Below are positions 10,466 through 25,755 of a stretch of DNA of 36,029 bases, piece after piece. The stretch spans positions 1 through 36,029 of the forward strand of contig NZ_QWEK01000036.1 of NCBI RefSeq assembly GCF_009935845.1, in the 5' to 3' direction. This DNA is from Pseudoflavonifractor sp. 524-17 (lineage in GTDB: Bacteria; Bacillota; Clostridia; Oscillospirales; Oscillospiraceae). Position numbers and translations under genes: made by a program. A model generated the notes under the pieces. The model searched no databases and had not been told where the DNA came from. It saw only the letters and a list, made by a program, of their open reading frames with translations. Within the stretch, counting starts at the first letter, position 1. Every line of letters starts with the position of its first letter.

Positions 10466-11815
10466 TTACATGCGGGACTTGATGAACTCAATGCGCTTCT
10501 GGCACTCGTCGATGAGGGCCACCTCGTCGATCTTGGTGGACTTCTTGTTGCGGATGACCACCTCTCCGTTTACGATGACGGTGTCCACGTCGTTGCCGTT
10601 GGCGTTGTTGACCAGGGCGGAGTCAGGGTAGTGGACAGGGGCAATGTGGGGCTTCTTCCAGTCCACCAGCAGAATATCCGCCTTCATGCCGGGGGCAATC
10701 TGGCCCATCTGGCCGTCCATGCCCATGGCAATGGCGCCGTTGCGGGTGGCCATGGTGAGTACGTCCTGGTTGGAGATGATGTGGGCGTCCAGGTTGTGGT
10801 TCTTGTGCATCAGGGCGGTGAATTTCAGGGTGGCCAACATATCCTGGGCGTTGTTGCTGCCGGGGCCGTCTGTGCCCAGAGCCACAGGCAGGCCCATCTT
10901 CAGCATCTCCGGCACCCGGGCCACGCCGTCAGCCAGGTAGGCGTTGGCAATGGGACAATGGATGGGCTGGGGACGGTATTTTTCCAGGATCTTCATCTCG
11001 TTGTCGTCCAGCCAGATGGCGTGGGCCAGCTGGGTATCCTCATCCAGAATGCCCATGGACTCGAAGAACTCCAGATTACGCATCCCGTCGTACATGGCGG
11101 CGGTCTTCTCCACCACGTCCTGATCCTCAGCGGTGTGGACCTGGAACTTGATGCCCAGGTCCTTGGACAGCTGCTTGGTCTTCTTGAACAGCTCGGGAGA
11201 GACGCCCCAGGGGTTCAGGGGGCCCACGCTCAAGGTCAGGCGGCCGTTCTCAGTGCCGTGCCACTTCTCATACAGGCGCTTGATGTCGTCGGTGATCCGG
11301 TCCTGGTCCTCTTCCCGGAACTTCTCATAGTACACAATGTTGGCGAAGCAGCGGCACATGTTGCCCCGGATGCCGGAGTCCCGCATGGCCTCAAAAATGT
11401 GGTCGCCGTTGTTGAGGGAGGTGAAGATATAGTGCTGATCCAGCACGCTGGTGGCGCCGGTCTTCAGATTCTCCAGGCAGCCGATGAGTCCGGCGTAGTA
11501 GAAGTCCTCCTCGGTCATCCGCTCTGAGAAGGGCCACACCTGGGTGGACAGCCAGGGGTAGAGCTGGAGGTTGTCCGCCAGGCCCCGCATAAAGGTCTGG
11601 AACAGGTGGCTGTGGGCGCTGACCATGCCGGGCATCAGGATTTTGTCGGCGGCGTCAATGACGGATCCGGCCTCCTGGCTCAACTGGGCCATGCGCACGG
11701 GGTCGGACCCCACCTCGCTGATCTTGTCGTCCACCACGTAGACAAAGCCGTTTCGGATCATTTCGTACTCGTCATTCATGGTGACGATCCAGGGGTTTCG
11801 GATAAGCAGGCTCAT
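10466..11815 (-). CDS. Amidohydrolase, SsnA/MtaD/AtzB-type deaminase (copy 1, canonical active site)
   Basis: A 449-residue metal-dependent hydrolase of the ATZ/TRZ branch, which deaminates or dechlorinates purine- and triazine-like rings. The metal ligands are all visible: His68 and His70 (VSAHSHLF), the HTAED block near residue 228 (ligand His and catalytic Glu), the LAHAIWL His, and Asp in GTDGPGSNN. It could act on guanine, 8-oxoguanine, adenosine-like or related compounds; the exact substrate cannot be told. The ATG at 11815 is preferred because AAAGGGA lies about 9 bases upstream; the GTG at 11824 is too close. It is the last gene of the island, 19 bp after the third Mo subunit and just before a terminator. 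Confidence 0.85.
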   Translation of the reverse strand: MSLLIRNPWIVTMNDEYEMIRNGFVYVVDDKISEVGSDPVRMAQLSQEAGSVIDAADKILMPGMVSAHSHLFQTFMRGLADNLQLYPWLSTQVWPFSERMTEEDFYYAGLIGCLENLKTGATSVLDQHYIFTSLNNGDHIFEAMRDSGIRGNMCRCFANIVYYEKFREEDQDRITDDIKRLYEKWHGTENGRLTLSVGPLNPWGVSPELFKKTKQLSKDLGIKFQVHTAEDQDVVEKTAAMYDGMRNLEFFESMGILDEDTQLAHAIWLDDNEMKILEKYRPQPIHCPIANAYLADGVARVPEMLKMGLPVALGTDGPGSNNAQDMLATLKFTALMHKNHNLDAHIISNQDVLTMATRNGAIAMGMDGQMGQIAPGMKADILLVDWKKPHIAPVHYPDSALVNNANGNDVDTVIVNGEVVIRNKKSTKIDEVALIDECQKRIEFIKSRM

Positions 11816-11834
11816 TTGCTTCACGTCCCTTTCT

Positions 11835-14087
11835 TTATTTCTTCATGGAGTGACCTAAGACAATGCGCTCCAGGTCGGCGGGCAGCTCCCGCACCCGCTT
11901 GCCGCAGGCGTTGTCGATGGCGTTGATGATGGCGGGGGCCACGTTGCAGGTGGCCGGCTCGCCCAGGCCCTTGGCCCCCAGGGGGCCGATCTCGCTGGGA
12001 TACTCCAAGGCGATGGCGTGGATCTGGTCCGGCACGTCCAGCGCGGTGGGGACGATGTAGTTTTCCAGGTTCAGGTTGCGGATGCGGCCGTCCTTCATAT
12101 CCACCTCTTCCGTCAGGGCATAGCCGATTCCCATGGCCACGCCGCCGCGGATCTGGCCCACCACCTCTTCCTTGTCCATGGCGTGGCCCACGTCGTGGAC
12201 GGCGAAGTAGTCGTCCACCGACACCGCGCCGGTCTTCAAGTCCACCGTCACCTCGGCGGCGGCGGCCCCGTAGACCCAGGACCAGTAGGCGTCTCCCACG
12301 CCGGTGTTCCGGTCGTAGTTGAACGGCGGCGCAGCAAAGTAGCCCAGGGAATTCAGATGGTCGGAGTTGTTAAAGGCGTCGGTGATTACAGTGAGCAGGG
12401 GCACGCTGTTGTCTGGGTTGGCGGCGTCGGTGACCGTCTCATTCGCGAAGACCACGTCCTTGGTGCCCAGGTGCTTTTCCGCGTAGCCGGCCAGCTTCTC
12501 CCGCACACTCAGGCAGGCTTTCCACACCGCGCCGCCGGAGAAGACGGTGCCCCGGGTAGCCACTGTGGGGCCCGCGTCGGTGAGGAAGCCGGTGTCCACC
12601 GGGCTGACCCGGATTTTATCTCGTTCCACACCCAGAGTTTCATGGACAACGCTAATAAGCATATTGGGGCCTCCCTGGCCCACCTCGGCGATGGAGGAGG
12701 CCACAGTAACGCTGCCGTCGGGCTGGACGGCGATCATGCCGCTGGCGGTGTCGATGCCCTGCCCCGCCGCGCCGAAGGACTCTCCCCGGTGAAGGAAGGC
12801 GATGCCCAGGCCCTTCTTGGTGCTGTTGTGGCTGGCGTTATAGGCGGCGATGCGCTCCCTGCGCTGGGCGATTTTGGCGTGCTCATCCAGGGCCTCATAG
12901 CACTTGTCCAGGGTGACGTTGGTCATGTGCTGCCCCGTGGTGGAGGTGCAGCCCTCGTAGAGCATATTCTTTTTGCGCAGCTCCACCGGGTCCATGTCCA
13001 GCTCCTTGGCGATCTCGTCCATGAGGGACTCGGAGCAGAAGTCCACCTGGGGGGAGCCGAAGCCCCGCAGGGCGTCGGAGTACACGTTGTTGGTATACAC
13101 GCTGGTGGAGATGGTGTCGATGTTGGGGACGATGTAGGGGCCTGCGGCCTCAATGGCCATGCGGGTGGTGACGGGGAAGGTCTTGCTTTTGTAGGCGCCG
13201 CCGTCCAGCACCAGCCGGACCTGCATGGCCTGGAGCATGCCGTCCCGGTTGAAGCCCACCTTGTAATGGGCGTGGATGGGGTGGCGCTTGGTGCCCTCCA
13301 TAATGGACTCCTCCCGGGTGAGCCACACCTTGCAGGGCCGGTTTAGGATGGAGGCCACCAGGGCAGCCCGGCTGGACGCCATGGCGATGTCGTAGTTTTT
13401 GCCGCCAAAGGACGCGCCGATGGTGGCCAGAATCACCCGCACCCGGGTCTGGGGCAGGCCCAGAGTTTCCGCCACGGTCTTGCGGATAACAAAGGGGCTG
13501 TTCACCGGGCAGCGGACAATCATCTCGCTGGTATTGGGGTCCCGGTAGGCCACGGCGGCCTCGGTCTCAATGCACACATGCTGGACCCGGGACGTGACAT
13601 AGTCCCGCTCCATAATATGGTCGCACTGCTGGAAGGCCGCCTCCACATCTCCACGCTGGGTCTTCCACTTACAGATGACATTGCCGCTGTCGTGGATCTG
13701 GGGCGCGTCCTCGTCCAGGGCGTGCATGGGGTCGAAGTTGGCCGGCAGCTCCTCATACTCCACCTTGACCAGCTTGACGGCCTCCTCCGCCTGTTCCCGG
13801 GTCTCCGCGGCCACCAGGGCCACGGCGTCGCCGATGTAGCGCACCCGGCCGCCGCAGATCACCGGCCGGTCACAGGGCTGGTTGGGGATGCCGGGGATAT
13901 CCTTCGCGGTAAAAACCTTCACCACCCCAGGCACCTTCTCCGCCTGGCTGCAGTCGATTGACACAATGCGTCCGCTGGCGATGGTAGAGCGCACCACCTT
14001 GCAGAACACCATGTCCTGCATCTGGATGTCGTTGGCGTAGATCGCCCGGCCGGTCACCTTGGTCAGAACGTCTCTTCGATGGTTCAT
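11835..14087 (-). CDS. Xanthine-dehydrogenase-family molybdopterin-binding subunit (copy 3)
   Basis: A 750-residue catalytic subunit of the molybdenum hydroxylase family, which hydroxylates carbons next to nitrogen in aromatic rings using water. The MPT-binding loop GASFGGK is at 224-230. The segment REES...KRHP puts Glu260 at the position of bovine xanthine oxidase Glu802, and Arg341 (ALRGFGSPQ) matches Arg880; both recognise purines. The C-terminal GAKGLGEP holds the catalytic Glu. It is therefore compatible with a purine substrate. The ribosome site AAGGAGGG precedes ATG 14087. It has no own FAD or Fe-S subunit next to it and must borrow electron carriers, most simply those encoded at 18120-19481. 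Confidence 0.9.
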   Translation of the reverse strand: MNHRRDVLTKVTGRAIYANDIQMQDMVFCKVVRSTIASGRIVSIDCSQAEKVPGVVKVFTAKDIPGIPNQPCDRPVICGGRVRYIGDAVALVAAETREQAEEAVKLVKVEYEELPANFDPMHALDEDAPQIHDSGNVICKWKTQRGDVEAAFQQCDHIMERDYVTSRVQHVCIETEAAVAYRDPNTSEMIVRCPVNSPFVIRKTVAETLGLPQTRVRVILATIGASFGGKNYDIAMASSRAALVASILNRPCKVWLTREESIMEGTKRHPIHAHYKVGFNRDGMLQAMQVRLVLDGGAYKSKTFPVTTRMAIEAAGPYIVPNIDTISTSVYTNNVYSDALRGFGSPQVDFCSESLMDEIAKELDMDPVELRKKNMLYEGCTSTTGQHMTNVTLDKCYEALDEHAKIAQRRERIAAYNASHNSTKKGLGIAFLHRGESFGAAGQGIDTASGMIAVQPDGSVTVASSIAEVGQGGPNMLISVVHETLGVERDKIRVSPVDTGFLTDAGPTVATRGTVFSGGAVWKACLSVREKLAGYAEKHLGTKDVVFANETVTDAANPDNSVPLLTVITDAFNNSDHLNSLGYFAAPPFNYDRNTGVGDAYWSWVYGAAAAEVTVDLKTGAVSVDDYFAVHDVGHAMDKEEVVGQIRGGVAMGIGYALTEEVDMKDGRIRNLNLENYIVPTALDVPDQIHAIALEYPSEIGPLGAKGLGEPATCNVAPAIINAIDNACGKRVRELPADLERIVLGHSMKK

Positions 14088-14179: not shown

Positions 14180-16390
14180 TCACCGATCCCGGTAGGGAGA
14201 ACTGTTGATCTCCACGTCCAGCGCCGCACACACGGCGTTCATCACCGCCGGGTTGGACGGGACCACCGCGGCCTCGCCGATGCTCTTGGCGCCGTAAGGG
14301 CCGTTGGGCTCGCCGGCCTCGATGAAATCCACCTGGATTTTGGGCATCTGGTCGGCGGTGAACATCTTGTACTTGCGGAAGTTGTTGTAAGTATTGCGGC
14401 CCTTCTCGTCGAACTTCAGGCCCTCGCACAGGGCGTAGCCCATGCCCATCTGGATGCCGCCCTCCAGCTGGCCCTCGATGCCCATACGGTTGATCACCTT
14501 GCCCACGTCGTGGACGGCCACATAGTCGGTGACCTGCACCGCGCCGGTGGCCTTCTCCACCTTCACCCGGACGAAGTGGGCGCCGTAGGCGGTGGGGCCG
14601 TCGGGCATCCGGTAGGTCTCGGAGCAGATGATCTCCCGGACGCTCTTGTCCTGGGCGTGGACCACCACATCGCTGAGGCTCACCGTCTTTCCGCTGGTCC
14701 TGGAGGCCACCCCCGCCGCTGTAAGCTCCAGGTTTTCCTCCGGCTCCTCCAGCATGAGGGCCGCCTCCTTGATGAGCTCCGCCGCCACGGATTCCGCGCA
14801 CTTCTTCGCAGCGCTGGCCGTCACATAGACGCCGTGGCTGGAGTAGTCCCCCAGCTGCCAGGGGCAGGTGTCCGTGTCCGCCTCCAAGGTGGTGATGTGG
14901 CTCAGGGGAATTTTCAGGACGTTGGACACCACCTGGGTCTGGGCGGTGACGGAGCCGTTGCCCATGTCGTGGGTGCCGGTGAAGTAGGTGCAGGTGCCGT
15001 CCTCGTTCATCTTGAGCATAACGCAGGCCTGGTCCCGGTGGGCGCCGAAGCAGCCGCAGCCGTGGGCGCCTACGGCCATGCTCACGCCGATGGCGTACTT
15101 GCCCCCCTCGTCGTCCAGGGGCTGCCAGTTCTTCATCAGCTCCACCCCCCGCGTGACGCAGTCCTTGGGGTGGGGATTGCCCAGCTTGAAGCCCATGGGA
15201 TCGCAGTCCTCCGGGTTGACCAGGTTCTTCAGCTGAAGGTCCACCACGGACATCCCCAGGGCCTTGGCGATCTTCTGGAACTGGCGCTGCTGGCCGAAGA
15301 AGGCCTGGGGGGAGCCGTAGCCCCGCATGGCGCCGGCAATGGGGGTATTGGTATACACCGGGGTGCCGGTAAAGCGCATATTGGGGATCTTATACACCTT
15401 GAACACCTTGTGGCTCAGGGCGCCCAGCACGTTCAGGGCGCTGCTGGCGTAGGCCCCGGTGTTGGTGATGATGCGGATATCCTGGGCCACGATGGTGCCG
15501 TCGTTCTTCACGCCTGTCTTCAGATAGACCACCGAGGCGTGGCGGGTGCGGGTGGAGTCAATGCAGGCCTGGCGGGAGTAGACCAGCTTCACCGGCCGGC
15601 CGGCCTTCATGGACAGCAGCGCGGCCACAGGCTCCAGCGTCATCTCCAGCTTGCCGCCGAACGCGCCGCCGATGGCGGGCGTAACCATGCGGATCCTGCT
15701 CATGGGCATCTTGAAAATGCGGCTGAGAATGATGCGGTAGCCGAAGGTATTCTGGCAGGCGCTGTATATGGTCAGCTTGCCGGTGTAGTCATAGTCCGCG
15801 ATGGCCACATGGGGCTCGATGGCGCAATGGTGGATGGGCTGGGTGGTGTACCGGTCCTCAAAAATATGGTCGGCCTGGGCAAAGCCTTTCTCCAGGTCGC
15901 CGGCGTTGTGGACCATGGTGGTAATGGCGTTGCTCTTCCCGTGGATGGGGTAGCTGTCCTCCCTCATGGCCTCCTCCGGGTCCAGATAGACCGGCAGCTC
16001 CTCGTACTCCACTTTGATCAGGCCCACCGCTTTCTTGGCGATGGCGGGGGTATCCGCGGCCACGGCGGCCACCCGGTCCCCCACAAAGCGCACGGTATCG
16101 TCAAAAATCCGCTCGGTATCGGGGATCTGATGCTCGTAAAAACGCACGGCGCTGTTGTACAGCGTGTCCGGGGCGTTTTTGTAGCACACCACGGCGCGGA
16201 CGCCAGGCAGAGCCTCCGCCGCGCTGGTGTCGATGGATTTGATTTTCCCGTGGGCCACCCGGCTGAACAGCACCTCGCCGTACAGCATTCCGTGTAGCTT
16301 CATATCGCCCACGTACTGCTTCCGGCCTGTGACCTTCAGCGCCGCGTCCCGAATGGGAGTCGCCTGGCCGATGCGGCTGTAATCCTCCAT
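14180..16390 (-). CDS. Xanthine-dehydrogenase-family molybdopterin-binding subunit (copy 2, altered purine site)
   Basis: A 736-residue Mo hydroxylase catalytic subunit. The MPT loop GGAFGGK is at 241-247, Arg356 (AMRGYGSPQ) corresponds to bovine Arg880, and the C-terminal GAKSIGEA keeps the catalytic Glu. The usual acidic REES/RDED segment is replaced by SRQACIDSTRTRHA, placing Ala275 where bovine Glu802 and Glu260/Glu281 of the two paralogues lie. The substrate is therefore probably not bound like xanthine. The C-terminus ends early at INSSPYRDR; I found no convincing continuation in another frame. The ribosome site AGGAGATGA precedes ATG 16390. It is the first gene after the 460-bp noncoding leader, with the third Mo subunit and copy-1 amidohydrolase downstream. 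Confidence 0.9.
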   Translation of the reverse strand: MEDYSRIGQATPIRDAALKVTGRKQYVGDMKLHGMLYGEVLFSRVAHGKIKSIDTSAAEALPGVRAVVCYKNAPDTLYNSAVRFYEHQIPDTERIFDDTVRFVGDRVAAVAADTPAIAKKAVGLIKVEYEELPVYLDPEEAMREDSYPIHGKSNAITTMVHNAGDLEKGFAQADHIFEDRYTTQPIHHCAIEPHVAIADYDYTGKLTIYSACQNTFGYRIILSRIFKMPMSRIRMVTPAIGGAFGGKLEMTLEPVAALLSMKAGRPVKLVYSRQACIDSTRTRHASVVYLKTGVKNDGTIVAQDIRIITNTGAYASSALNVLGALSHKVFKVYKIPNMRFTGTPVYTNTPIAGAMRGYGSPQAFFGQQRQFQKIAKALGMSVVDLQLKNLVNPEDCDPMGFKLGNPHPKDCVTRGVELMKNWQPLDDEGGKYAIGVSMAVGAHGCGCFGAHRDQACVMLKMNEDGTCTYFTGTHDMGNGSVTAQTQVVSNVLKIPLSHITTLEADTDTCPWQLGDYSSHGVYVTASAAKKCAESVAAELIKEAALMLEEPEENLELTAAGVASRTSGKTVSLSDVVVHAQDKSVREIICSETYRMPDGPTAYGAHFVRVKVEKATGAVQVTDYVAVHDVGKVINRMGIEGQLEGGIQMGMGYALCEGLKFDEKGRNTYNNFRKYKMFTADQMPKIQVDFIEAGEPNGPYGAKSIGEAAVVPSNPAVMNAVCAALDVEINSSPYRDR

Positions 16391-16850
16391 AAAATCTCAT
16401 CTCCTAGCTTAATGACGGCCCTCTGAATTGCCCCCGGCACCCTTGACATAGCCCGTACAGCGACACATATCCTGTAGTCAGTGCCTTTGCCGCCGATGCC
16501 TGTCTACACCGCCCGGTGGTTCCGACGTCCCAGGTATGCCCGGCGTACAGAAGCCGTTTCCTTATTTCACTGCTCCTAAAAGACCGATGGCTGTCTTTCT
16601 ACGCAAAAGCAGGCGCGCTCCATCAACACAATGATGGAGGCGCCTGCTTCCCTGACATTTCTGTGCTTGACCAAAACTGCGGTCCCTCCTCCATCACAAG
16701 GGAGTGGTTCACACGCACATTTGATACACCTGACATCCCCCCGTAAGGGTCCCCCCGGCGGCCAGGGTAGCAGCAAAAAGCTCTGCCGCCGGGGAGCAGA
16801 AATTCTGGGACTGTCCGGTCACTTTGTCACACAAATTTATTTGGCCGCGA
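16391..16850 (-). promoter_or_regulatory. 460-bp noncoding region with terminator and possible antiterminator: candidate attenuator leader
   Basis: No gene is seen between the PreA-like gene and Mo copy 2. Read on minus, the first part folds into a GC-rich hairpin (CCCCGGCGGC ... GCCGCCGGGG, about 16750-16795). Further down, TGATGGAGG (16696-16688) can pair with CCTCCATCA (16640-16632). The latter is also the left arm of the terminator-like hairpin at 16605-16648. The two pairings exclude each other, as in a riboswitch or attenuator. The ligand is unknown; I could not match it to the Moco, purine or T-box consensus by eye. Confidence 0.45.
16605..16648 (-). terminator. Terminator-like hairpin upstream of Mo copy 2
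   Basis: A 17-bp stem with one bulged base (16608-16625 with 16632-16648) and a 6-nt loop is followed on minus by TTTT. It lies about 200 nt after the PreA-like stop and 215 nt before the Mo copy 2 start. Confidence 0.65.
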
Positions 16851-18074
16851 TCAGCCCTTCATTTTGGCGTCGAAATCCTTCAGCGCGGGGGCCTGGGCCT
16901 TCACCAGGGCGTCAAACTCCTTAGAGGCGGCGGCCCGCTTGGCGTTCTCCGCGGACTGCTCCTCCACAAAGCTGGTCAGGGCGTGGGTGGGGCACACGTC
17001 AGCGCACAGGCCGCAGGAGCGGCACAGGCTGCGGTCCAGCTTCATCTCGGGGAACTCCACCTTGCGGGCGTTGTAGCAGCACACGGTCTCGCAGCGGCCG
17101 CACTTGGTACACTTGCTGGAGTCGTAGTGGAAGCCCATGTCGGTGATGTTCTCGCTGCTGGGGAAGTTGGCCAGGGCCACGCCCATGGCCTCCTGAATGG
17201 AGGAGAAGCCCAGCTGGGCCAGACGGTCGGACAGCTGATAGCACATCTTCTCCACGTAGTCCAGGCCCTTCAGGATGCCCACGGAGCAGATGCCCACGGC
17301 GCTGCAGCCCACCATCAGGTACTCCAGGGCGTCGTCCGCCTTCATCACGCCGCCGGTGCCGTACAGGTTCTTATAGCCTGCCACATTGCGGGTGATCTGG
17401 GAGTTGATGCGCAGGGAGATGGGCTTGATGGGGGCGCCGGTCATCCAGCCGTAGCCGTCGTTGGACAGCATCACAGGGGCCCGCTTCTCCACGTCGATCA
17501 TCAGCGTGGGTCCGATGGAGTCGATGGCGCAGATGCCGTCGGCGCCGTGCTCATAGCACTTCTTGGCGGTGCCCGCCGCGTCGGGCCAGTTGCCGGACAG
17601 CTTGCAGATGACGGGGATGTTCACATGGGACTTGGCGTAGTCCAGCATGGGCAGCAGGGTGTCCTCGGTGTAGGAGACCAGCTCGATGATGTGGGCGCCG
17701 GCCTTCTCCACATCGGCCACAATGGCCTCAGCCTCCATGGGGGTGTGGCCCACGGAGCCGATGACCACGGCGCCGGCCTTCACCGCCTCGGGGATCTCCT
17801 TCTCATACCACTGGAAGCGGTCGGAGTCGGCCCACTTCTCGCAGTTGAGAATGGCCTCGTTGTTGATCTTGGCCATGTGGTGGGCGGGGTTGATGGCGGC
17901 GCCCAGACGGATGGTTTTGGTCACCACCGCGCCCACACCGGCCTGATGGGCGCGGATCATCCCCTCAGACCCGTAGGTCAGGGGGCCGGAGCCCACGATA
18001 AAGGGGCTTTGCAGATCGCAGCCGCAGAACTTTACGCCGATGGAGGCGCCCTTTACGTTATCCTTATTAAACAT
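16851..18074 (-). CDS. PreA-like dihydroorotate/dihydropyrimidine dehydrogenase-family protein with two 4Fe-4S clusters
   Basis: A 407-residue protein: an FMN-binding TIM barrel of the DHOD/DPD class (about 1-300) followed by a two-cluster ferredoxin domain (Cys322, 325, 328, 332 and Cys351, 354, 357, 361). Flavin features remain (SPFIVGSGPLT at the start, Lys158 in CKLSGNW, YGTGG near 238-242). Where DPD has its NLSCP motif and active-site loop with the catalytic Cys, this protein has a short LVSYTEDTLL, so the loop is missing, and DPD's later Asn-Thr pair is Asp185-Ser186. Pyrimidine reduction is thus doubtful; another heterocycle of the pathway, or electron transfer between the Mo enzymes and ferredoxin, is possible. 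The ribosome site AGGAGAG precedes ATG 18074; it follows the 2Fe-2S gene by 45 bp. Confidence 0.8.
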   Translation of the reverse strand: MFNKDNVKGASIGVKFCGCDLQSPFIVGSGPLTYGSEGMIRAHQAGVGAVVTKTIRLGAAINPAHHMAKINNEAILNCEKWADSDRFQWYEKEIPEAVKAGAVVIGSVGHTPMEAEAIVADVEKAGAHIIELVSYTEDTLLPMLDYAKSHVNIPVICKLSGNWPDAAGTAKKCYEHGADGICAIDSIGPTLMIDVEKRAPVMLSNDGYGWMTGAPIKPISLRINSQITRNVAGYKNLYGTGGVMKADDALEYLMVGCSAVGICSVGILKGLDYVEKMCYQLSDRLAQLGFSSIQEAMGVALANFPSSENITDMGFHYDSSKCTKCGRCETVCCYNARKVEFPEMKLDRSLCRSCGLCADVCPTHALTSFVEEQSAENAKRAAASKEFDALVKAQAPALKDFDAKMKG

Positions 18075-18611: not shown

Positions 18612-19481
18612 TCAGTCCTCAGGCAGGCCGCAGGCCCGGCAGAGGGCGCGCTGTACCAGAGCCTCGACAACGGGCTTTTTGTACTCGGTGGACCAGCGGA
18701 TGCCGGTGCGCTTGATCATCTCCTCGGAGACGGCCTTGCCGGCCTCCTCAAAGAGGGCGGCGGAGGGGGCCTTCCCCTTCACCAGGGCCTCGGCGCACTC
18801 CACCCGGTCGGGGGTGGCGAAGACGCAGCCTGGGGCGATGCGCACGTCGGCGATAACGCCGCCCTCCAGCTTCACCGCCACGGCGGCGTTCATCCGGGAG
18901 ATTGCCAGAGCCTTGCGGCGGCCCAGCTTGATAAAGGCGGTCTCATAGCCGTCCAGACGGTCGATCACAATGCGGGTGACCATCTCGTTGGCCGCCAGCT
19001 TCAGCTTTCCCGCCTTTTCCATGGCGTCCTTTACCATGACCTCCCGGGCGCCGTCCACGCTGACCACCGTCAGCCGGGCGTTCAGGGAGACAAAGGGAGA
19101 CAGGGTGTCCGCCGCGGGGGAGGCGTTGCAGATGTTGCCGCCCACAGTGCCCTTGTTGCGGATCTGGGTGGATCCCACAGTGGAGGAGGCCACGGACAGG
19201 AAGGGCACATACCTGCGCAGCACCTCAGACTCATTCACCTGGGTGTGGCTGGTCATGGCTCCGATGCTGATGCAGTCGTCCTTCACCTCGATGCCCCGCA
19301 GCTCGGCGATGTCCTGCAGGTCCATCAGGTACTCCACGTCCTTCAGGCGGGAGGAGCCCTCCCGCAGCTGCACCATCAGATCGGTGCCGCCGGCGTAAGG
19401 CTTTACTTTCGCGTTGTATTGGTTGAGATACTCCAGCGCCTGCTGGAGGCTTTCAGGCTTTAAATAACTCAGCTTCTGCAT
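18612..19481 (-). CDS. Xanthine-dehydrogenase-type FAD-binding subunit
   Basis: A 289-residue medium subunit of a molybdenum hydroxylase. It shows the FAD pyrophosphate motif PYAGGTDLMVQLR near residues 29-41 and the second FAD motif VGSTQIRNKGTVGGNICNAS, then the CO-dehydrogenase flavoprotein C-terminal domain. It passes electrons from the 2Fe-2S subunit to NAD+ or another acceptor. AGGGGGA precedes ATG 19481. It sits 13 bp after Mo copy 1, so Mo copy 1, FAD and Fe-S subunits form the usual three-subunit enzyme. Confidence 0.95.
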   Translation of the reverse strand: MQKLSYLKPESLQQALEYLNQYNAKVKPYAGGTDLMVQLREGSSRLKDVEYLMDLQDIAELRGIEVKDDCISIGAMTSHTQVNESEVLRRYVPFLSVASSTVGSTQIRNKGTVGGNICNASPAADTLSPFVSLNARLTVVSVDGAREVMVKDAMEKAGKLKLAANEMVTRIVIDRLDGYETAFIKLGRRKALAISRMNAAVAVKLEGGVIADVRIAPGCVFATPDRVECAEALVKGKAPSAALFEEAGKAVSEEMIKRTGIRWSTEYKKPVVEALVQRALCRACGLPED

Positions 19482-19494
19482 GGTATCCCCCTAA

Positions 19495-21819
19495 TTATCT
19501 CAGCTTCTTGCCCAGCAGCACCCGCTCCAGGTTGGCCGGATTCTCCCGGATGCGCTTGCCGGTGGCGTTGTAGATGGCGTTGGCAATGGCCGCGCCCACC
19601 ACCTCGGTGGCCGGCTCGCCGATGCTCTTGGCGCCGAAGGTGCCCCGGTCGTCGTCACACTCGAAAATGTTTACGTCCATCTCAGGCATATCGGCGGCGG
19701 TGGGAATGATGTAGTTCTCAAAGTTCTGGTTGCGCACCTTGCCGTTGGACACCTCCACTTCTTCGGTGACGGCGTAGCCCTGGCCCATGAGGATGCCGCC
19801 GTAGATCTGGCCCAGCACCAGGGCGGGATTGATGGCGGTGCCCACATCGTGGCTGGCGGTGACCTTCTGCACGTCCACGTAGCCGGTCTCCATATCCACC
19901 TCAATCTCCGCCACGACGCAGCCGTAGGCGTAGTTGGGGAAGGCCACACCCTGTCCGGTGTGGTGGTCCTGGATGCAGGCGGGGGGCATGAACCACTCGT
20001 AGGCGGCCATTTGGCGGCCGGACCACAGGGAGGCGTTGCACACGTCCTTAAAGGCCACCTTGGTCTCGGGCTGCTTCACGCTGTGGAAGAAGCCGTCCTC
20101 CAGCACGATGTCCTCGGGGCCCTTCACCTGGGCCTGGTCCTTGAAGAAGCCCAGGGCCACGGCGTTGGCCCGCATAATCTCATTGAGCTTGAAGCCCACC
20201 TTGCGGGTGGACTGGGCGCCCATCACGGTGCCCCGGGAGGCCACGGTCATGCCGGAGTCGGCAATGGCCTGGGTGTCAGTGCCGTAGAACCGGATGGTCT
20301 CATAGGGCACGCCGATGGCCTCGGCGGCGATCTGGGCGAAAGCGGTCTTCAGGCCCTGTCCGTTCTCCGCCAGGCCGGTGTTGATGAGCACAGAGCCGTC
20401 CTCGTTGGCAATGGCCATGGCGCCGGAGGCGTCGGGGGACTCCGCCCCCAGGCCGCAGCCCCGGTGGGCGATGGCCAGACCGATGCCCTTGCGCTTCTTG
20501 GTGGAGGTCTGAGCCTTGTAGGCTTCGCGCTTGCTCTGGTAATCGGTCTTCGCCGTGGTATAGTCCATAATCTCCTGGATGTTCACATGGTCCAGCACGG
20601 TGCCGGTGGCGTTGGTGGTGCCGTCCTTGAGGCAGTTGATCCGGCGGAACTCCAGGGGGGCCATGCCCAGCTCCTCGGCGATCTCCTCAATGAACTGCTC
20701 CTGGCCCCACAGCAGCTGTGGAGAGCTGTACCCCCGCATGGCACCGCCGTGGATGTTGTTGGTGAACACGCCGTAAGTATCGGTCTTCACGTTGGGGATG
20801 GTATAAGCGCCGCAGCTGTGGATGCTGGCCCGGGAGTTCATAAACTGGGTCTGATTGTTGTAGGCGCCGCAGTTGTCGATCTGGGTGCCCTCCCAGGCCA
20901 CGATGCGGCCGTCCTTCATGACGCCCGCCTTGTAGCGCAGCAGGAAGGGGTGGCGCTTGGCGCTCTCCAGGAAGGACTCCTCCCGGGAGAAGGTCATTTT
21001 CACCGGGCGGCCCACCAGGCGGCACAGGTAGGCGCACCGGGCGGCCACCATGCCCACGCCCTCTTCCTTGCCGCCGAAGCTGCCGCCCAAAGTCTCCTGG
21101 AAGACCCGGACCTCGTTCATACCCACGCCCAGCACATCGGCCACGTAGCGGCGGGTAAAGAAGGGGTTCTGGCTGGAGGAATGGACGGTCATCACCCCGT
21201 CCGCGGGGTTCTGGATGCACACCACCGCCTCTGGCTCAATGTAGGAGTGCTCGATGTACTGGGTCTCATACTCCCGCTCAATGATCAGGTCGGCCTGAGC
21301 GAAGCCCTGCTCCACATCGCCCTTGCGGATGGGGTAGAGGGAATCGGTAAACACGTTGTCGGGGTACTGCGGGTGGACCGCGGGGGCGCCGGGCTTGATG
21401 GCGTCCCGGATGGTATACACACCCGGCAGGTCCTCGTACTCCACCTCAATGGCCGCCAGGGCTTCCGCCACCAGGGGCTTGGTCTCGGCGCATACGATGG
21501 CCACCACGTCGCCGGCGTACTTGACCTCATTGGTCAGGTACATGTAAGGCGCGTTTCCGGCGCAGCTTTTCGGCTTGGGCATGTCGTCCGCGGTCACCAC
21601 AGCCAAGACGCCGGGGATGGACTTGGCCTTGCTGGTGTCCATTTTGACAACCTTCGCGTGGGAACGGCCGCTGCGCAGGCAGCCGCCGTACACCATATCC
21701 ACAAATTTCAGGTCGGCGGCGTAGTGGGCACGGCCCGTCACCTTGTCAACGCCGTCAATTCGGGGCTTTGACTGATTCAAAACCCGATAGTTCTTCTTCA
21801 TTTCTCCCAGTAGGGGCAT
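19495..21819 (-). CDS. Xanthine-dehydrogenase-family molybdopterin-binding subunit (copy 1, with FAD and Fe-S partners)
   Basis: A 774-residue catalytic Mo subunit, the most likely true purine (xanthine or hypoxanthine) hydroxylase of the island because its FAD and Fe-S genes follow directly. The MPT loop GGSFGGK is at 245-251, Glu281 (SREESFLESAKRHP) matches bovine Glu802, Arg362 (AMRGYSSPQ) matches Arg880, and the C-terminal GAKSIGEPATE holds the catalytic Glu. The start is uncertain: ATG 21819 follows AAGGTGA at a short distance and is preferred; in-frame ATGs at 21834 and 21873 would add 5 or 18 residues with weaker sites. Confidence 0.9.
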   Translation of the reverse strand: MPLLGEMKKNYRVLNQSKPRIDGVDKVTGRAHYAADLKFVDMVYGGCLRSGRSHAKVVKMDTSKAKSIPGVLAVVTADDMPKPKSCAGNAPYMYLTNEVKYAGDVVAIVCAETKPLVAEALAAIEVEYEDLPGVYTIRDAIKPGAPAVHPQYPDNVFTDSLYPIRKGDVEQGFAQADLIIEREYETQYIEHSYIEPEAVVCIQNPADGVMTVHSSSQNPFFTRRYVADVLGVGMNEVRVFQETLGGSFGGKEEGVGMVAARCAYLCRLVGRPVKMTFSREESFLESAKRHPFLLRYKAGVMKDGRIVAWEGTQIDNCGAYNNQTQFMNSRASIHSCGAYTIPNVKTDTYGVFTNNIHGGAMRGYSSPQLLWGQEQFIEEIAEELGMAPLEFRRINCLKDGTTNATGTVLDHVNIQEIMDYTTAKTDYQSKREAYKAQTSTKKRKGIGLAIAHRGCGLGAESPDASGAMAIANEDGSVLINTGLAENGQGLKTAFAQIAAEAIGVPYETIRFYGTDTQAIADSGMTVASRGTVMGAQSTRKVGFKLNEIMRANAVALGFFKDQAQVKGPEDIVLEDGFFHSVKQPETKVAFKDVCNASLWSGRQMAAYEWFMPPACIQDHHTGQGVAFPNYAYGCVVAEIEVDMETGYVDVQKVTASHDVGTAINPALVLGQIYGGILMGQGYAVTEEVEVSNGKVRNQNFENYIIPTAADMPEMDVNIFECDDDRGTFGAKSIGEPATEVVGAAIANAIYNATGKRIRENPANLERVLLGKKLR

Positions 21820-21904
21820 TTCATCACCTTCCATGCACGGAAATCCCATCCGAAGCAGATAACCATTGGCCATCCTGTCTAACGGCGTGGTTATTCACAT
21901 TATG

Positions 21905-23218
21905 TTACTTAAACTTCCAGAACTCAGCGCAGGCCTGGCGCATCTCGGCGCGGGCCTTGTCTACGTCCAGCGTCGTGATGACGCCGTCCTTTTTCAGCTG
22001 CTTGCCGCCGACGAAGACGTTCTTCACGTCGGCGGGATTCCGATATAAGATCAGTTGGTCATAAATGTTTTTCTCGTTGATGGGCGTGGGCGTATCGTTC
22101 ATGCTGACGGTAATCACGTCTGCCAGCATTCCCGGGGCAATACACCCCGTATTTTCCATGCCGAGGGCCTGCGCCCCCATATCCGTGGCCATCCGGTAGA
22201 CCTGCCGGGCGCCCATAACCTGTGGGTCCTGCCGGTGTGCCTTGTGGATAAGAAATGCGCCGCGCATTACTTCAAAGAAATTGTTGATGTAGCCGTCCGT
22301 ACCGATGCCCACCTTGACGCCGGCGTCCAGCAGGTCGGTCACCGGGGCGATGCCGCCGCCTACCTCGCAATTGGACAGGGGCATCGTTACCGCACTGGCG
22401 CCGGCGCGGGCCAGTATGCCGATCTCTTCCTGGTTGATCTGCACCACCTGGGAGGCCAGCACATCGCTGTCCATGCAGTCCAGCTCGTCATAGATACAGA
22501 TGGGCTGCTTTCCGTAGTGCTCCTGGGTCCAGTTGGGCTCAAACACACTCTCAGACAGGTGCATATGGAACTTGGCCCCCAGCTCCCGGGCCATGGCGCG
22601 GGCTTTCTGCACATATTCCTTGGAACAGGTAAAGAGGGTGTGGATGCTCATGGCGCCTTTCACCATGGGGTCATCCTTGTGATTGCGGATAAAGTCCGCG
22701 TTCTCCTCCAGTCCCAGCCGCGCGTTCTCCTCATTCATCCGCTCGCAGGCCTCAAAGGTGAGGATACCCCGCAGGCCCGCCTCCCGGATGACCTTCGCCT
22801 CCGCCTCCAGCGCGCCCGGGATAGCGTTGGGCGCCTCCAGAATGTCGAAGAAAGTGGTCACGCCGGAGTCAATCATCTCCACGCTGGCCCAGCGGGCTGT
22901 GACCTCGGCCAGCTCCGGCGTGATGCGGTTTTCGATATAGGGCCACCAGAAGTCGTCCAAGAAGCTGGAGAACTCCGTCACCACCGCGTCGGTGCTGATC
23001 CCACGGGAGAACACATTGTACATATGGTTGTGCCCGTTGATGAAACCGGGCAGGATGATCTGATCAGTGGCCTCGATCACGGTGTCTCCCCCGTCCACAG
23101 CCAGGCTCTCGTTGGGACCCACCGCGGCGATGAGGCCGTCCTTGAGCGCCACGCCCCATCCAGCCTTCAGACCATCCTTCAGGAGCACGGCCCCGCCGTG
23201 AATGATTGTTGCTGCCAT
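21905..23218 (-). CDS. SsnA-like amidohydrolase (copy 2, catalytic His replaced)
   Basis: A 437-residue protein close in length and tail (ending AEFWKFK) to SsnA-type aminohydrolases. Metal ligands are kept: His63 and His65 (NGHNHMYN), His220 and Glu223 (HLSE), Asp308 (GTDG), plus His193. The next block, normally AHCVHL, reads SQVVQI (256-261), so the catalytic His is Gln257, and the later SHNP-like His is also missing (VTMPLSN). It may have another chemistry or substrate, or be impaired. The start at 23218 follows GGGAAGGGTGA; a longer frame to 23269 lacks a site. It lies 85 bp before the Mo copy 1 gene and is likely the first gene of the main transcript. Confidence 0.85.
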   Translation of the reverse strand: MAATIIHGGAVLLKDGLKAGWGVALKDGLIAAVGPNESLAVDGGDTVIEATDQIILPGFINGHNHMYNVFSRGISTDAVVTEFSSFLDDFWWPYIENRITPELAEVTARWASVEMIDSGVTTFFDILEAPNAIPGALEAEAKVIREAGLRGILTFEACERMNEENARLGLEENADFIRNHKDDPMVKGAMSIHTLFTCSKEYVQKARAMARELGAKFHMHLSESVFEPNWTQEHYGKQPICIYDELDCMDSDVLASQVVQINQEEIGILARAGASAVTMPLSNCEVGGGIAPVTDLLDAGVKVGIGTDGYINNFFEVMRGAFLIHKAHRQDPQVMGARQVYRMATDMGAQALGMENTGCIAPGMLADVITVSMNDTPTPINEKNIYDQLILYRNPADVKNVFVGGKQLKKDGVITTLDVDKARAEMRQACAEFWKFK

Positions 23219-23299
23219 AAATTCACCCTTCCCGGCAAGCCTGTGGTTGACAATAGAGCGAGAAAACAAAAACTGACTAGTTTTCCAGCGGTGCTGTTG

Positions 23300-23336
23300 A
23301 AAAGAGGCGACACATATGTCGCAATGTGCCGCCTCT
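23300..23336 (-). terminator. Terminator after ygeW
   Basis: On minus, AGAGGCGGCACA pairs with TGTGTCGCCTCT (one G-U pair) and is followed by TTTTC. It separates the ygeW transcript from the downstream amidohydrolase-Mo operon. Confidence 0.6.
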
Positions 23337-23375
23337 CTCCAAAATCAGCGCACAGGCGCCTGAATTCTTTGTCCT

Positions 23376-23402
23376 CCCCTGCCGGCGCGGAACCGGCAGG
23401 GG
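23376..23402. other. GC-rich intercistronic hairpin after ygeW
   Basis: CCCCTGCCGG pairs exactly with CCGGCAGGGG around a 7-nt loop. It has no T run on either side, so it is more likely a 3'-end stabiliser or processing element than a terminator. Confidence 0.5.
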
Positions 23403-23426
23403 AACAGATTTCACTTGTGTCGCAGA

Positions 23427-24434
23427 TTAACGGCGGCTGGCCACGTTGCCCATGGTCAGAGCCATCAGAGCCTTGATGGTGTGCATGCGGTTCTCGGCCT
23501 CGTCGTAGATGACGGACTGAGCGGAGTCAGCGACCTCGTCGGTGACCTCGATGCCGCGGTCGGCGGGCATGCAGTGCATGTAGATGGCGGTGTTCTTGGC
23601 CAGAGCCATGCGGCGGCTGTCCACGCACCAACCGGGATTGGCGTTGATCATCTCCACGCCGGTCTTCTCGTCGTCGCCCACAGCCATGATGGGGCCCCAG
23701 CCCTTGGCGTAGACAACGTCGGCGTTCTCGCAGGCGGCGTCCATGTCGTTGCAGACCTCGAACTTGGAGCCGTAGAACTCAGCGTTCTTGCGGGCGGTCT
23801 CCATAGCCTCGGGCATCAGCTCAAAATCCTTGTTGGGCACGGCCAGGGTCACGTCCATGCCGAAGCGGGGCATCAGGGTGATCAGGGACTGAGCCATGGA
23901 CAGGGGACGCATGTAGTTGCCGGCGGAGGTCCAGGAGATGACGAACTTGCGGCCCTTCAGCTCATTGTGGAACTTCTCCTTAATGGTGAACAGGTCGGCA
24001 ATGGACTGGGTGGGGTGCCACAGGTCGCACTGCATGTTGTAGATGGGAATCTTGGAGTACTTGGCAAGCTTCTGCATGTAAGCGTTGCCGCCCACCAGAG
24101 TGTTGCGCACGCCGATGCCGTGGCCCATGCGGGAGAGAACCTCGATGGTGTCCTGGGGGGTCTCGCCGTGGTCGATCTGGGTAGCCTTGGGGGTCAGGTA
24201 GTTGCCGTGGCCGCCCAGCTGGGTGATGCCGCACTCGAAAGCGTTGCGGGTCCGGGTGGACTCCTCAAAGAACAGCATAAACAGGGACTTGTTGCGCAGC
24301 AGCTCGTCGTACTTGTGGGTGTCGAGCAGGTTGTCCATCTTCAGGACGGACGCAACGTCCATCAGAGTCTCCAGCTCTTCGTTAGTCCAGTCCTGCTCAC
24401 AGAGAAAATGCTTGCCCTTGAGACCAGTGTTCAT
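23427..24434 (-). CDS. ygeW: YgeW-like carbamoyltransferase
   Basis: A 335-residue aspartate/ornithine carbamoyltransferase-family protein. The carbamoyl-phosphate site is intact: STRTR at 59-63, HPTQ at 140-143 and HCMPADRG from His287. The ornithine-binding SMG motif of OTC is absent; the corresponding region reads VVYAKGWGPI, so the substrate is not ornithine. In the anaerobic purine and ureide pathways such enzymes probably run backwards, phosphorolysing a carbamoyl group to carbamoyl phosphate, from which carbamate kinase makes ATP. It is shorter than the E. coli protein as I recall it. The ribosome site TGGAGG precedes ATG 24434. It is divergent from ygeY across a palindromic site and is followed by its own terminator. 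Confidence 0.8.
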   Translation of the reverse strand: MNTGLKGKHFLCEQDWTNEELETLMDVASVLKMDNLLDTHKYDELLRNKSLFMLFFEESTRTRNAFECGITQLGGHGNYLTPKATQIDHGETPQDTIEVLSRMGHGIGVRNTLVGGNAYMQKLAKYSKIPIYNMQCDLWHPTQSIADLFTIKEKFHNELKGRKFVISWTSAGNYMRPLSMAQSLITLMPRFGMDVTLAVPNKDFELMPEAMETARKNAEFYGSKFEVCNDMDAACENADVVYAKGWGPIMAVGDDEKTGVEMINANPGWCVDSRRMALAKNTAIYMHCMPADRGIEVTDEVADSAQSVIYDEAENRMHTIKALMALTMGNVASRR

Positions 24435-24492
24435 GGTAAAAACCTCCAGAAAAAATTTTTTGCAAAAGTCTCTATATCTCTAGAATACTTTA

Positions 24493-24508
24493 TGGTATAA
24501 TCATACCA
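24493..24508 (+). promoter_or_regulatory. Palindromic operator candidate over an extended -10 promoter
   Basis: TGGTAT-AATC-ATACCA is a perfect 6+4+6 palindrome in the 106-bp ygeW-ygeY divergent spacer. It contains TGGTATAAT (24493-24501), an extended -10 for ygeY. A regulator bound here would block ygeY and probably affect ygeW. Confidence 0.55.
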
Positions 24509-24540
24509 GCATCTCGCAAAAAAATCAAGGAGGAATTCGC

Positions 24541-25755
24541 ATGATCGAAAAAAAAGAAGCGCTGGCAAAAATTAAGGAGTATGTGGCCGCTCAGGAGGAG
24601 GAAGTCGTCCAGTTTTTGAAGGACTTCATCGCTATTGAGAGCGTCACCTACAACGAGAAGAACGCGGTGGACTTCCTTGCCGGCAAAATGAAGGAGTTTG
24701 GCTTTGACGAGGTCCGGGTGGACAAGGTCGGCAACGTGGTGGGCCGGGTCGGCTCCGGCAAGACCGTCCTGCTCTACGACGCCCACATCGACACCGTGGA
24801 GCTGGGCGATCCCGCCGCCTGGGGCTTCAACCCCCTGGAGGCCCGGATGGAGGAGGGCAAGGTCCTCCACGGCCGGGGCGCGGTGGACGACAAGGGCTGC
24901 CTCACCGGCATCACCTTCGCCGGCAAGGCCCTGAAGGCCCTGGGTCTGGACAAGGACTTCACTCTGTGGGTGTCCGGCTCCCTGTCCGAAGAGGACGTGG
25001 AGGGTTCCTGCGTGAAGGCCATGACCGAGGAAAACCCCGACATCAAGCCCGACTTTGTGCTGGTGGCCGAGGCCTCCGAGAACCGGGTCATCCGGGGCCA
25101 CAAGGGCCGCGCCCTCATTAAGATCTCCGTCCCCGGCAAGTGCGCCCACGCCTCCACCGCCTGGCGGGGCGACAACGCCCTGATCAAGGCCCTGCCCATC
25201 ATGGAGAAGGTGGACAAGTTCCAGGACTTTGTGGAGGATCCCTTCCTGGGCAAGGGCTCCATCGAGGTCACCAAGGTGGACTGCAAGACCCCCTCTCTGA
25301 ACACCATCCCCGGCGAGGCCGTCATCACCTGCGACCGCCGCATCTCCTGCGGCGAGAGCATCGACGACCTGCTGAAGGAAGTGGCTCAGTTCTACGAGGG
25401 CATTGACGGCGTCACTGCGGTCATCGACACCGAGAAGGTGCAGACCTACACCGGCTACGACATCACCTGCGTGGACTACTTCCCCTCCTGGGTCCTGCCG
25501 GAGGACCACCCCCTGATCCAGGCCGGCGTGGACGCCTTTACCGGTCTGTGGGACGAGAAGCCCGTGGTGGGCTCCTGGGAGTTCTGCACCAACGCCACCC
25601 ACCTGTGCGGCCGCATGGGCGTTCCCGCCATCGGCTACGGCCCCGGCGATGGCTCCCTGTGCCACTCCACCCAGGACAAGGTGCCTGTGGACGACCTGAT
25701 GCGCGCCATCGCTTTCTACGCCTCCCTGCCCCTGTTCGTACCTAAGAAGGGCTAA
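24541..25755 (+). CDS. ygeY: YgeY-like M20-family hydrolase
   Basis: A 404-residue M20/ArgE-DapE-family metallohydrolase of the YgeY type, which in purine-degrading gut bacteria is thought to act late in the pathway on an open-chain amide. It shows His82 and Asp84 (AHIDTVE), Asp116-Asp117 (GAVDDKG), Glu150-Glu151 (SEEDVEG), and the final ligand His in LCHSTQDKV. The lid domain lies in the middle, from about ENRVIRGHKGRALIKIS. The length equals the E. coli protein to within a residue or two. AAGGAGG precedes ATG 24541. It is divergent from ygeW, and this pairing strongly supports the ygeW/ygeY assignment. A terminator follows. Confidence 0.88.
   Translation: MIEKKEALAKIKEYVAAQEEEVVQFLKDFIAIESVTYNEKNAVDFLAGKMKEFGFDEVRVDKVGNVVGRVGSGKTVLLYDAHIDTVELGDPAAWGFNPLEARMEEGKVLHGRGAVDDKGCLTGITFAGKALKALGLDKDFTLWVSGSLSEEDVEGSCVKAMTEENPDIKPDFVLVAEASENRVIRGHKGRALIKISVPGKCAHASTAWRGDNALIKALPIMEKVDKFQDFVEDPFLGKGSIEVTKVDCKTPSLNTIPGEAVITCDRRISCGESIDDLLKEVAQFYEGIDGVTAVIDTEKVQTYTGYDITCVDYFPSWVLPEDHPLIQAGVDAFTGLWDEKPVVGSWEFCTNATHLCGRMGVPAIGYGPGDGSLCHSTQDKVPVDDLMRAIAFYASLPLFVPKKG

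Follow-up and report, generated by a model that had tools for sequence, protein, structure and literature searches.

Molybdenum (Mo) hydroxylases are usually treated as fixed sets of Mo, flavin adenine dinucleotide (FAD) and iron-sulphur (Fe-S) subunits, and in the xanthine dehydrogenase family one dedicated FAD and one dedicated 2Fe-2S subunit for each Mo subunit is the usual, if not universal, arrangement. Here we describe a ten-gene island (positions 10466-25755) with three Mo genes and a single FAD/2Fe-2S pair, found in a 36,029-nucleotide stretch of DNA from Pseudoflavonifractor sp. 524-17 (the window; contig C66 of genome G000, whose 3.72 Mb assembly comprises 149 contigs). The closest described systems are those of reductive uric-acid degradation. 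The E. coli-type set is given as XdhD-YgfM, YgfK, SsnA, HyuA, YgeW, YqeA, YgeY and YgeX (PMC12507026), and the reductive uric-acid pathway, including the use of the PydA-type reductase UacX for YgfK in C. difficile, has already been published (PMC12507026, PMC12990295). The Mo hydroxylases of C. difficile comprise five xdhA, three xdhB and three xdhC genes in five loci, with one xdhA fused to an Fe-S part (PMC11448449), and C. acidurici 9a is reported to have an extra single xdhA beside the purine-hydroxylase genes (PMC3519856). Unequal numbers of Mo-hydroxylase subunits are therefore known, with C. difficile as the nearest precedent, and the island is best read as a divergent purine-type variant with a probably shared pair. 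No report of several Mo subunits on one pair in an operon was among the literature matches listed, and the literature search found no paper on Pseudoflavonifractor with purine and xanthine dehydrogenase.

Nine of the island genes lie on the minus strand, in the order ornithine carbamoyltransferase (OTC)-like carbamoyltransferase (23427-24434), the SsnA-related amidohydrolase A2 (21905-23269), Mo3 (19495-21873), FAD1 (18612-19481), FeS1 (18120-18596), a PreA-like flavin mononucleotide (FMN)/4Fe-4S reductase (16851-18074), Mo2 (14180-16390), Mo1 (11835-14087) and A1, an amidohydrolase of the 5'-deoxyadenosine deaminase/atrazine chlorohydrolase (TRZ/ATZ) type (10466-11824). FeS1 is the sole intact 2Fe-2S subunit and FAD1 the sole FAD subunit of the island, each being the single match on the window contig to Fer2_2 and FAD_binding_5, respectively. 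A first-pass annotation, made from the sequence, had proposed an N-heterocycle island of three Mo subunits, one FAD and one 2Fe-2S subunit, a PreA-like flavoprotein, two SsnA-like amidohydrolases, a YgeW-like carbamoyltransferase and a YgeY-like hydrolase, ended by one terminator. All of these gene families are there, but some labels, one strand and the terminator count need correcting: neither amidohydrolase reaches the SsnA cut-off, nor does the carbamoyltransferase reach that of YgeW, and the YgeY-family M20 hydrolase (24541-25755), itself confirmed, lies divergently on the plus strand, opposite to the other nine genes.

Like the E. coli type, the island encodes a Mo enzyme, a flavin Fe-S reductase, an SsnA-related amidohydrolase, a carbamoyltransferase and YgeY, with YgeX and carbamate kinase encoded elsewhere. 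Unlike it, the island has a PreA-like protein for YgfK, three Mo subunits per FAD/Fe-S pair, proteins that miss the SsnA and YgeW cut-offs and no HyuA among the open reading frames (ORFs) scanned (a subset of all ORFs in the window: 20 by NCBIfam and 10, partly overlapping, by Pfam), and it shares its genome with a canonical set. The island resembles the C. difficile UacX variant in that a PreA/PydA-like protein, with no FAD domain fused to it, stands where the E. coli type has YgfK, and differs from it in having an OTC-type carbamoyltransferase rather than UacY and a PreA-like protein that lacks the Cys-Pro loop. As in the C. difficile Mo-hydroxylase loci (PMC11448449), a purine-using anaerobe has more genes for catalytic subunits than for FAD or Fe-S subunits, whereas here three Mo genes stand in one operon with the pair, together with the relic of a lost partner. 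The xanthine dehydrogenase heterotrimers (XdhABC; 1rm6) draw on the same Mo, FAD and 2Fe-2S subunit families, yet in the island three Mo genes, whose products have three different pockets, come with a single FAD gene and a single Fe-S gene. In the explanation we favour, and which we consider rather more probable than its negation, the island is a second, divergent reductive purine-type operon that feeds YgeX and the carbamate kinase ArcC, in parallel to the canonical uric-acid set.

The island is a real, conserved gene set that is rare within the samples searched. In a search of 60 genomes, a PreA-like orthologue with 90-94% identity was found in three of nine same-genus genomes, Pseudoflavonifractor gallinarum DSM 107456 (G005), Pseudoflavonifractor sp. 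MSJ-37 (G004; 20 contigs, 99% complete) and the metagenome-assembled genome (MAG) SUG478 (G002), while the other six congeners, three of which are 81-83% complete, gave only distant PreA-like matches (E 1e-15 or weaker). The gene order noticed in the first pass recurs in all three, which carry the ten island genes and a MocR-type regulator in identical order with island proteins 83-99% identical, and also, split over three contigs and with a PreA-like protein at 82% identity, in MAG ABMPRH_148_1 (G082, locus L055), which belongs to another genus of the same family and is 85% complete. Homologues of Mo3 with at least 50% identity occur in four of 200 family genomes, the window's own included (G000, G004, G082 and the closed genome G109), and carbamoyltransferase matches with E below 1e-60 in four of 394 order genomes, again including its own (G000, G004, G031 and G406); both are sample counts, and SUG478 and P. 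gallinarum are not among the matches listed.

We then took a census of Mo, Fe-S and FAD subunits in six genomes (G000, G002, G004, G005, G082 and G109) using the profiles PF20256, PF01799 and PF00941, with multiple PF20256 matches per gene merged by hand. The main argument, which leaves out G082 and G002, is carried by MSJ-37, in which the Mo:FeS:FAD count is 8:5:3 and all five Fe-S genes adjoin a Mo gene; the excess of three Mo over Fe-S genes is accounted for by two from the island and one from a second island. The window's own genome has 8:6:2, with one Mo gene (on contig C49) broken, and P. gallinarum 9:7:4, with one Mo match (on C11) in a 338-amino-acid frame, while the closed relative G109 has 8:8:7 and all of its Fe-S genes adjoin Mo genes. 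One FAD and one 2Fe-2S subunit per Mo subunit is thus not what the genomes of MSJ-37 and strain 524-17 encode. The first-pass annotation had reasoned that dedicated FAD and Fe-S genes elsewhere would speak against a shared pair, and the census finds none to spare in MSJ-37.

The second island of MSJ-37 (C1:742422-748319) has the arrangement Mo3'-FAD'-FeS'-Mo1', with proteins 60, 47, 63 and 51% identical, in that order, to those of the window. Phylogenetic trees place Mo1 and Mo1' in one clade (support 100/100), and a second clade (100/100) joins Mo3 and Mo3' with the only Mo subunit encoded by an operon of G109. Taken together, the second island and these clades indicate that two Mo genes with one pair are an old layout present in two islands. 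Mo2, on the other hand, falls in the clade of the loci that we call C117 and C100, and looks like a recruit from another lineage, one with its own 2Fe-2S subunit. Contig C49 of the 524-17 genome (L043/L131, approximately 2036-4827) carries a decayed copy of the second-island type, in which a broken Mo1-like gene is accompanied by an intact-looking Fe-S gene (92% to FeS' of MSJ-37) and a FAD fragment. The C117-type loci (L042, L128) are pairs of 2Fe-2S and Mo genes with no adjoining FAD gene, beside MCH-type cyclohydrolase genes and, in MSJ-37, a xanthine/uracil permease; this type is taken as another purine locus.

The gap between the PreA-like gene and Mo2 measures 460 bp in the window and 460-510 bp across the four genus genomes, and contains two conserved blocks. 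The block that adjoins Mo2 (16415-16558, minus strand) aligns in all four at 75-89% identity and is a relic of the C-terminal half of a 2Fe-2S gene, with remnants of the motifs GFCTPG and CRCTGYVK and an internal stop; tblastn with Fe-S proteins detected it at E 1e-4 in the window, 0.006 in P. gallinarum and 0.04 in SUG478. In MAG ABMPRH_148_1 (L055), an intact 2Fe-2S gene, FeS2, lies between PreA and Mo2 exactly at the position of the relic, and its product groups with the C117- and C100-type Fe-S proteins in one clade (99/98). Because the gap holds this relic and the same site in the MAG holds an intact gene, Mo2 was most likely paired at one time with a dedicated 2Fe-2S subunit, which was lost before the four genomes diverged. 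We had also considered the block as a second structured RNA; this was dropped, as its covariance model gave one further, weak match in 60 genomes (27 bits, E 0.003), which fell inside an intact XdhC-type gene of MSJ-37, and tblastn found the 2Fe-2S remnants. Mo2 is nevertheless under purifying selection, like the neighbouring Mo genes: its frame is free of stops in all four genomes and its ratio of nonsynonymous to synonymous divergence (dN/dS) is 0.13-0.17, at a synonymous divergence (dS) of 0.43-0.60, with corresponding ratios of 0.12-0.16 for Mo1 and 0.10-0.17 for Mo3. The relic has diverged more slowly (Jukes-Cantor 0.12-0.31) than the synonymous sites of Mo2, so that this leader may still matter.

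Pocket residues were mapped through alignment onto positions 767, 802, 880, 914, 1009 and 1261 of bovine xanthine dehydrogenase, among which we take E1261 to be the catalytic glutamate and E802 and R880 to be the purine anchors. The pocket of Mo1 reads N/N/R/F/F/E at these positions and that of Mo2 Q/L/A/Y/C/E, the latter resembling the C117 enzyme (Q, I, A, F). Mo3, with Q767, E802, R880, Y914 and E1261, comes close to canonical XdhAC (Q, E, R, F, E) and has both anchors, where Mo1 has N802/R880 and Mo2 L802/A880. The idea that one Mo subunit is merely a structural pseudoenzyme was rejected, since all three retain E1261; Mo1, Mo2 and Mo3 have the look of functional enzymes that differ in substrate or in ring position. 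On the genome evidence, Mo1 and Mo3 appear well supported as users of one shared pair, and for Mo2 such sharing is probable. The census, the second island and the differing pockets thus agree with the first-pass idea that one electron-transfer pair serves several catalytic subunits, the partner of Mo2 being the less certain part. A bolder version, in which one FAD/2Fe-2S module would serve three interchangeable Mo subunits with distinct pockets, each attacking other positions of a single purine-type ring in its turn, perhaps as hetero dimers, in a new branch joining the known pathway only at YgeX and carbamate kinase, is offered as a tentative proposal that we regard as possible though not favoured.

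As for the rest of the pathway, contig C57 of the 524-17 genome encodes SsnA (552 bits), YgfK (1361), YgeW (800), YgeY (616), YgeX (617), carbamate kinase (382) and a selenium-type XdhAC (1348), so that the island is accompanied by a canonical uric-acid set in its own genome, and these seven genes rule it out as the sole uric-acid set of this genome. The statement of the first-pass annotation that the window holds no ygfK, hyuA or ygeX fits the ORFs scanned, but ygfK, ygeX and arcC stand on C57; as to HyuA, none was found among the window ORFs scanned, and no genome-wide search for it was made. Its further suggestion that the PreA-like protein replaces YgfK is not supported in strain 524-17, which has a true YgfK, and is plausible in MSJ-37 alone. 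The latter is the exception among seven genomes tested, with no SsnA (best score 227 against 455.5 bits) and no YgfK (289 against 835), and the subunit census found no fused XdhAC in it. MSJ-37 has kept YgeX (91% identical over 361 residues) and ArcC (92%), which are the two steps without a gene among the scanned island ORFs, with their genes about 260 bp apart. This gap contains nothing significant of the YgeW and YgeY genes that separate them in strain 524-17, and no canonical YgeW or YgeY turned up in the 1.13 Mb read of the approximately 2.6 Mb of MSJ-37. Xanthine-permease-like genes lie about 1 kb from its carbamate kinase and 13 kb from YgeX.

Related operons, of low identity, occur in two further genomes and agree with this picture. 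That of G406 encodes YgeX, an OTC-like protein (41%), a PreA-like protein (34%), YgeY (33%, cut-off passed) and carbamate kinase, together with SsnA-like (297-312 bits) and nucleobase-permease-like genes, both below cut-off; it also contains a 165-amino-acid protein (L195 50-547) for which NCBIfam gave no match at E up to 1e-15. That of G109 (L132/L121, C1 approximately 3239600-3257800) combines hydantoinase A/B, an opine-dehydrogenase-like gene, OTC-like (35%), PreA (31%) and A2 (31%) homologues with an acyl-CoA synthetase, an indolepyruvate oxidoreductase (IorAB), one Mo subunit (51% to Mo3), one FAD subunit, one Fe-S subunit and carbamate kinase, and its gene families make it a candidate for the fermentation of a heterocycle in which ATP would be gained at two steps. 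Set against the reductive uric-acid cluster of Li et al. 2025, which turns uric acid into yanthine and 2,3-diaminopropionate, the island has YgeY (389 against a cut-off of 321 bits) and lacks a protein that reaches the SsnA cut-off; the YgeW profile gave 183 against 500 bits, and UacY was not searched for. In the place of a YgfK/UacX-type reductase the island has the PreA-like protein (153 against 335 bits, no Cys loop), with YgfK on C57.

In the pathway that we infer for the island, subunit sharing, the substrate, the direction of the Mo reactions and the order of the steps would be as follows. The Mo subunits would oxidise or dehydroxylate purine-like ring positions and pass electrons through the single FeS1/FAD1 pair, and the PreA-like protein would reduce and dearomatise the ring, probably with ferredoxin. 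A2 would hydrolyse rings, perhaps with A1 in a hydantoin-opening role, after which the OTC-like enzyme would convert one ureido group to carbamoyl phosphate and YgeY would remove the other. The last steps, to pyruvate, ammonia and ATP, would fall to YgeX and carbamate kinase, whose genes lie elsewhere. Mo1 and Mo3 would derive from a unit Mo3-FAD-FeS-Mo1 that, as far as seen, has one pair for two Mo subunits, while Mo2 would have been recruited with its own 2Fe-2S gene; since that gene has decayed, Mo2 would have to borrow another partner, most simply FeS1.

Several observations weigh against this scheme. MAG ABMPRH_148_1 has a 9:9:2 count with no excess of Mo over Fe-S, although it is 85% complete and one of its Fe-S matches (on C185) is unplaced, and SUG478 has 6:4:2 with two loci broken by contig ends, where a C117-type Fe-S gene has no Mo partner and sits at the end of a contig, and a C100-type Mo gene has no Fe-S partner. 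FeS1, FeS' and the G109 protein stand at an open fork of the Fe-S tree and do not group, and all four island genomes encode an Fe-S protein of the C117 type that shares 69-73% identity with FeS2. In addition, tblastn sees the relic weakly in SUG478 and P. gallinarum and finds no significant match to Fe-S proteins in the PreA-Mo2 gap of MSJ-37. On the side of the pathway, the identities to the G109 operon are low (35% for the OTC-like and 31% for the PreA-like protein), no hydantoinase was identified in the island, and the Cys loop found in pyrimidine-reductase-like relatives is missing from the PreA-like protein, which makes a reductase role less certain. Furthermore, the 524-17 genome, G406 and G109 all hold true SsnA and YgfK, and such redundancy for one substrate would be odd.

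The C117-type proteins raise the question of which partner Mo2 uses, and Mo2 might instead be served in trans by this 2Fe-2S paralogue, leaving FeS1/FAD1 common to Mo1 and Mo3 only. FeS2 of the MAG, at 69-73% identity, is indeed closer to the C117-type proteins than to FeS1 of the window (46%), these proteins share a clade as Mo2 does with the C117 Mo subunits, and C117-type Fe-S genes are available in strain 524-17, SUG478 (94%), MSJ-37 and P. gallinarum (92%). Yet Mo2 remains within the FeS1 operon in all four genomes, the C117-type Fe-S gene adjoins its own Mo gene in strain 524-17, MSJ-37 and P. gallinarum, and the MAG retains FeS2 despite having a C117-type gene (82%), so that we regard service in trans as rather unlikely, if worth keeping in mind. 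The idea that Mo2, perhaps together with Mo1, stopped working when its Fe-S gene decayed and is only a remnant would fit the loss of FeS2 in all four genomes and the decayed second-island-type copy on C49, but seems very improbable for a gene that is free of stops in all four, evolves at a dN/dS of 0.13-0.17 and retains E1261.

The substrate might likewise be another N-heterocycle that yields a ureido acid, such as a pyrimidine, a pterin, an imidazole or a methylated or drug heterocycle. The missed SsnA and YgeW cut-offs, the canonical uric-acid set already encoded by strain 524-17, the proximity of A1 to triazine and 5'-deoxyadenosine hydrolases, and the opine-dehydrogenase, IorAB and acyl-CoA synthetase genes of the G109 operon, which are outside the published uric-acid set, all point that way; against them stand the two purine anchors retained by Mo3, the PreA, OTC and YgeY homologues (33-41%) found beside YgeX and a nucleobase-permease-like gene in G406, and the location of YgeX and ArcC of MSJ-37 near xanthine-permease-like genes. 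We judge a non-purine substrate unlikely. It seems more improbable still that the island is the known C. difficile-type (UacX) uric-acid pathway with nothing added. A PydA-type UacX does take the place of YgfK there (PMC12507026), but the same report has UacY rather than a carbamoyltransferase in C. difficile and, in the sections considered, describes no set of several Mo subunits with one pair; the island proteins moreover miss the SsnA and YgeW cut-offs, and true SsnA, YgfK, YgeW, YgeX and XdhAC are present in the 524-17 genome. The purine-type reading is the best supported, with the extra genes of G109 and the triazine/deoxyadenosine affinity of A1 leaving room for another heterocycle.

YgeY is the only one of the ten island proteins to pass an NCBIfam cut-off (NF009555, 389 against 321 bits). 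The Mo, FAD and Fe-S subunits have their best scores against XdhA, XdhB and XdhC, all below cut-off (Mo1 503 and Mo2 601 against 780 bits for NF043082; FAD1 223 against 310 for NF043083; FeS1 197 against 217 for NF043084), and the best solved-structure match of all three Mo subunits is 4-hydroxybenzoyl-CoA reductase (1rm6). Both amidohydrolases miss the SsnA cut-off of 455.5 bits (A1 211.7, A2 251). A1 scores 358 against 522 bits for NF005557 and best matches the AtzA structure 4v1x; A2, which scores 251-261 against SsnA cut-offs of 444-455, best matches 8-oxoguanine deaminase (7ww2) and likely starts near 23218, from where homology begins. The carbamoyltransferase (OTC 259 against 280.85 bits; YgeW 183 against 500) has N-acetylornithine carbamoyltransferase as its best solved-structure match and retains the motifs STRTR, HPTQ and HCMP, with KGW in the place of the SMG of ornithine enzymes. 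Its conservation far exceeds that of the other island genes: it is 95-99% identical in the three congeners, and its dS is 0.14-0.26, as compared with 0.34-0.68 in A1, A2 and the three Mo genes, which fits strong codon bias or high expression.

The PreA-like protein (NF006183, 153 against 335 bits; Pfam DHO_dh and Fer4) lacks the Cys-Pro active-site loop that the G109 copy has in the alignment, and no PreT-type FAD partner for it was identified in the window. The loop is also absent from PreA-like relatives of 31-34% identity in SUG478 (L052), G031 and L057, and is present in four other homologues; the loop-less proteins perhaps form a separate subclass of reductases with the dihydroorotate dehydrogenase fold.

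Turning to the noncoding regions, the single terminator of the first-pass annotation gives way to four terminator-like hairpins with T-rich stretches. Two flank the genes, one 3' of A1 at the end of the nine-gene operon (10421-10446, minus strand; 26 self-complementary nucleotides, then a T-run) and one 3' of YgeY (25777-25810, plus strand; a 15-pair stem with a T-rich tail). The other two lie inside the operon on the minus strand, at 16607-16649 (-33.5 kcal/mol) and at 23307-23322 (seen in all four aligned genomes), and split it into the carbamoyltransferase gene, the stretch from A2 to PreA, and Mo2-Mo1-A1, which suggests that the operon may be expressed in steps. None of the other three genomes shares the sequence of the hairpin at 10421-10446; the hairpin at 16607-16649 is kept in all four. 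A mechanical terminator scan gave weak support, with 14 terminators where shuffled sequence would give 12.1, and its output did not include the hairpins at 10421 and 16607.

Ahead of the hairpin at 16607-16649 lies element I (16661-16731, minus strand), a conserved noncoding block whose 71 nucleotides are identical in SUG478 and MSJ-37, the island genes of which have a dS of 0.14-0.57, and which is 74-90% identical in pairs with the window. Strong matches were found at the island locus alone, in four of 149 genomes; three weak matches lie outside these four (search R1), of which L063 is inside a long coding frame and L064 and L065 score about 21 bits. No Rfam family matched the window at its gathering score, and a search of 16300-16900 at E up to 10 gave one weak match, gut-2 (12.5 against 39.8 bits), outside element I. 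A switching riboswitch or attenuator at element I found no support, with no Rfam match and with an antiterminator pairing that beats shuffles in P. gallinarum only, and weakly so in SUG478 (shuffles as strong: 0 of 300 in P. gallinarum, 19 in SUG478, 65 in the window and 74 in MSJ-37). Between the carbamoyltransferase and YgeY genes, the divergent promoter region (24435-24540) falls within 24400-24640, where mean column identity over the four genomes is 91%, and it contains a promoter-like match at 24528-24500 on the minus strand (five such matches in the scan against 3.4 expected).

The MocR-type regulator (25848-27314, plus strand; Pfam GntR and Aminotran_1_2, the latter the aminotransferase fold) adjoins the island in all four genus genomes, with 71-74% identity in SUG478, MSJ-37 and P. 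gallinarum; tblastn gave no match to it on contig C37 of MAG ABMPRH_148_1. Beyond the island, the window encodes an oleate hydratase (34055-35890, minus strand; 939 bits against a cut-off of 567), near which lie a hybrid histidine kinase and an ABC solute-binding protein (27389-31269).

In the case of Mo2, a partner gene has decayed and the catalytic gene is still under selection, which makes the sharing of partners among Mo hydroxylases directly testable. Our analysis also suggests that gut anaerobes have a second purine-type degradation set that is missed when SsnA and YgfK serve as markers. By these two markers MSJ-37 would score as pathway-negative, which bears on counts of purine-using gut bacteria.

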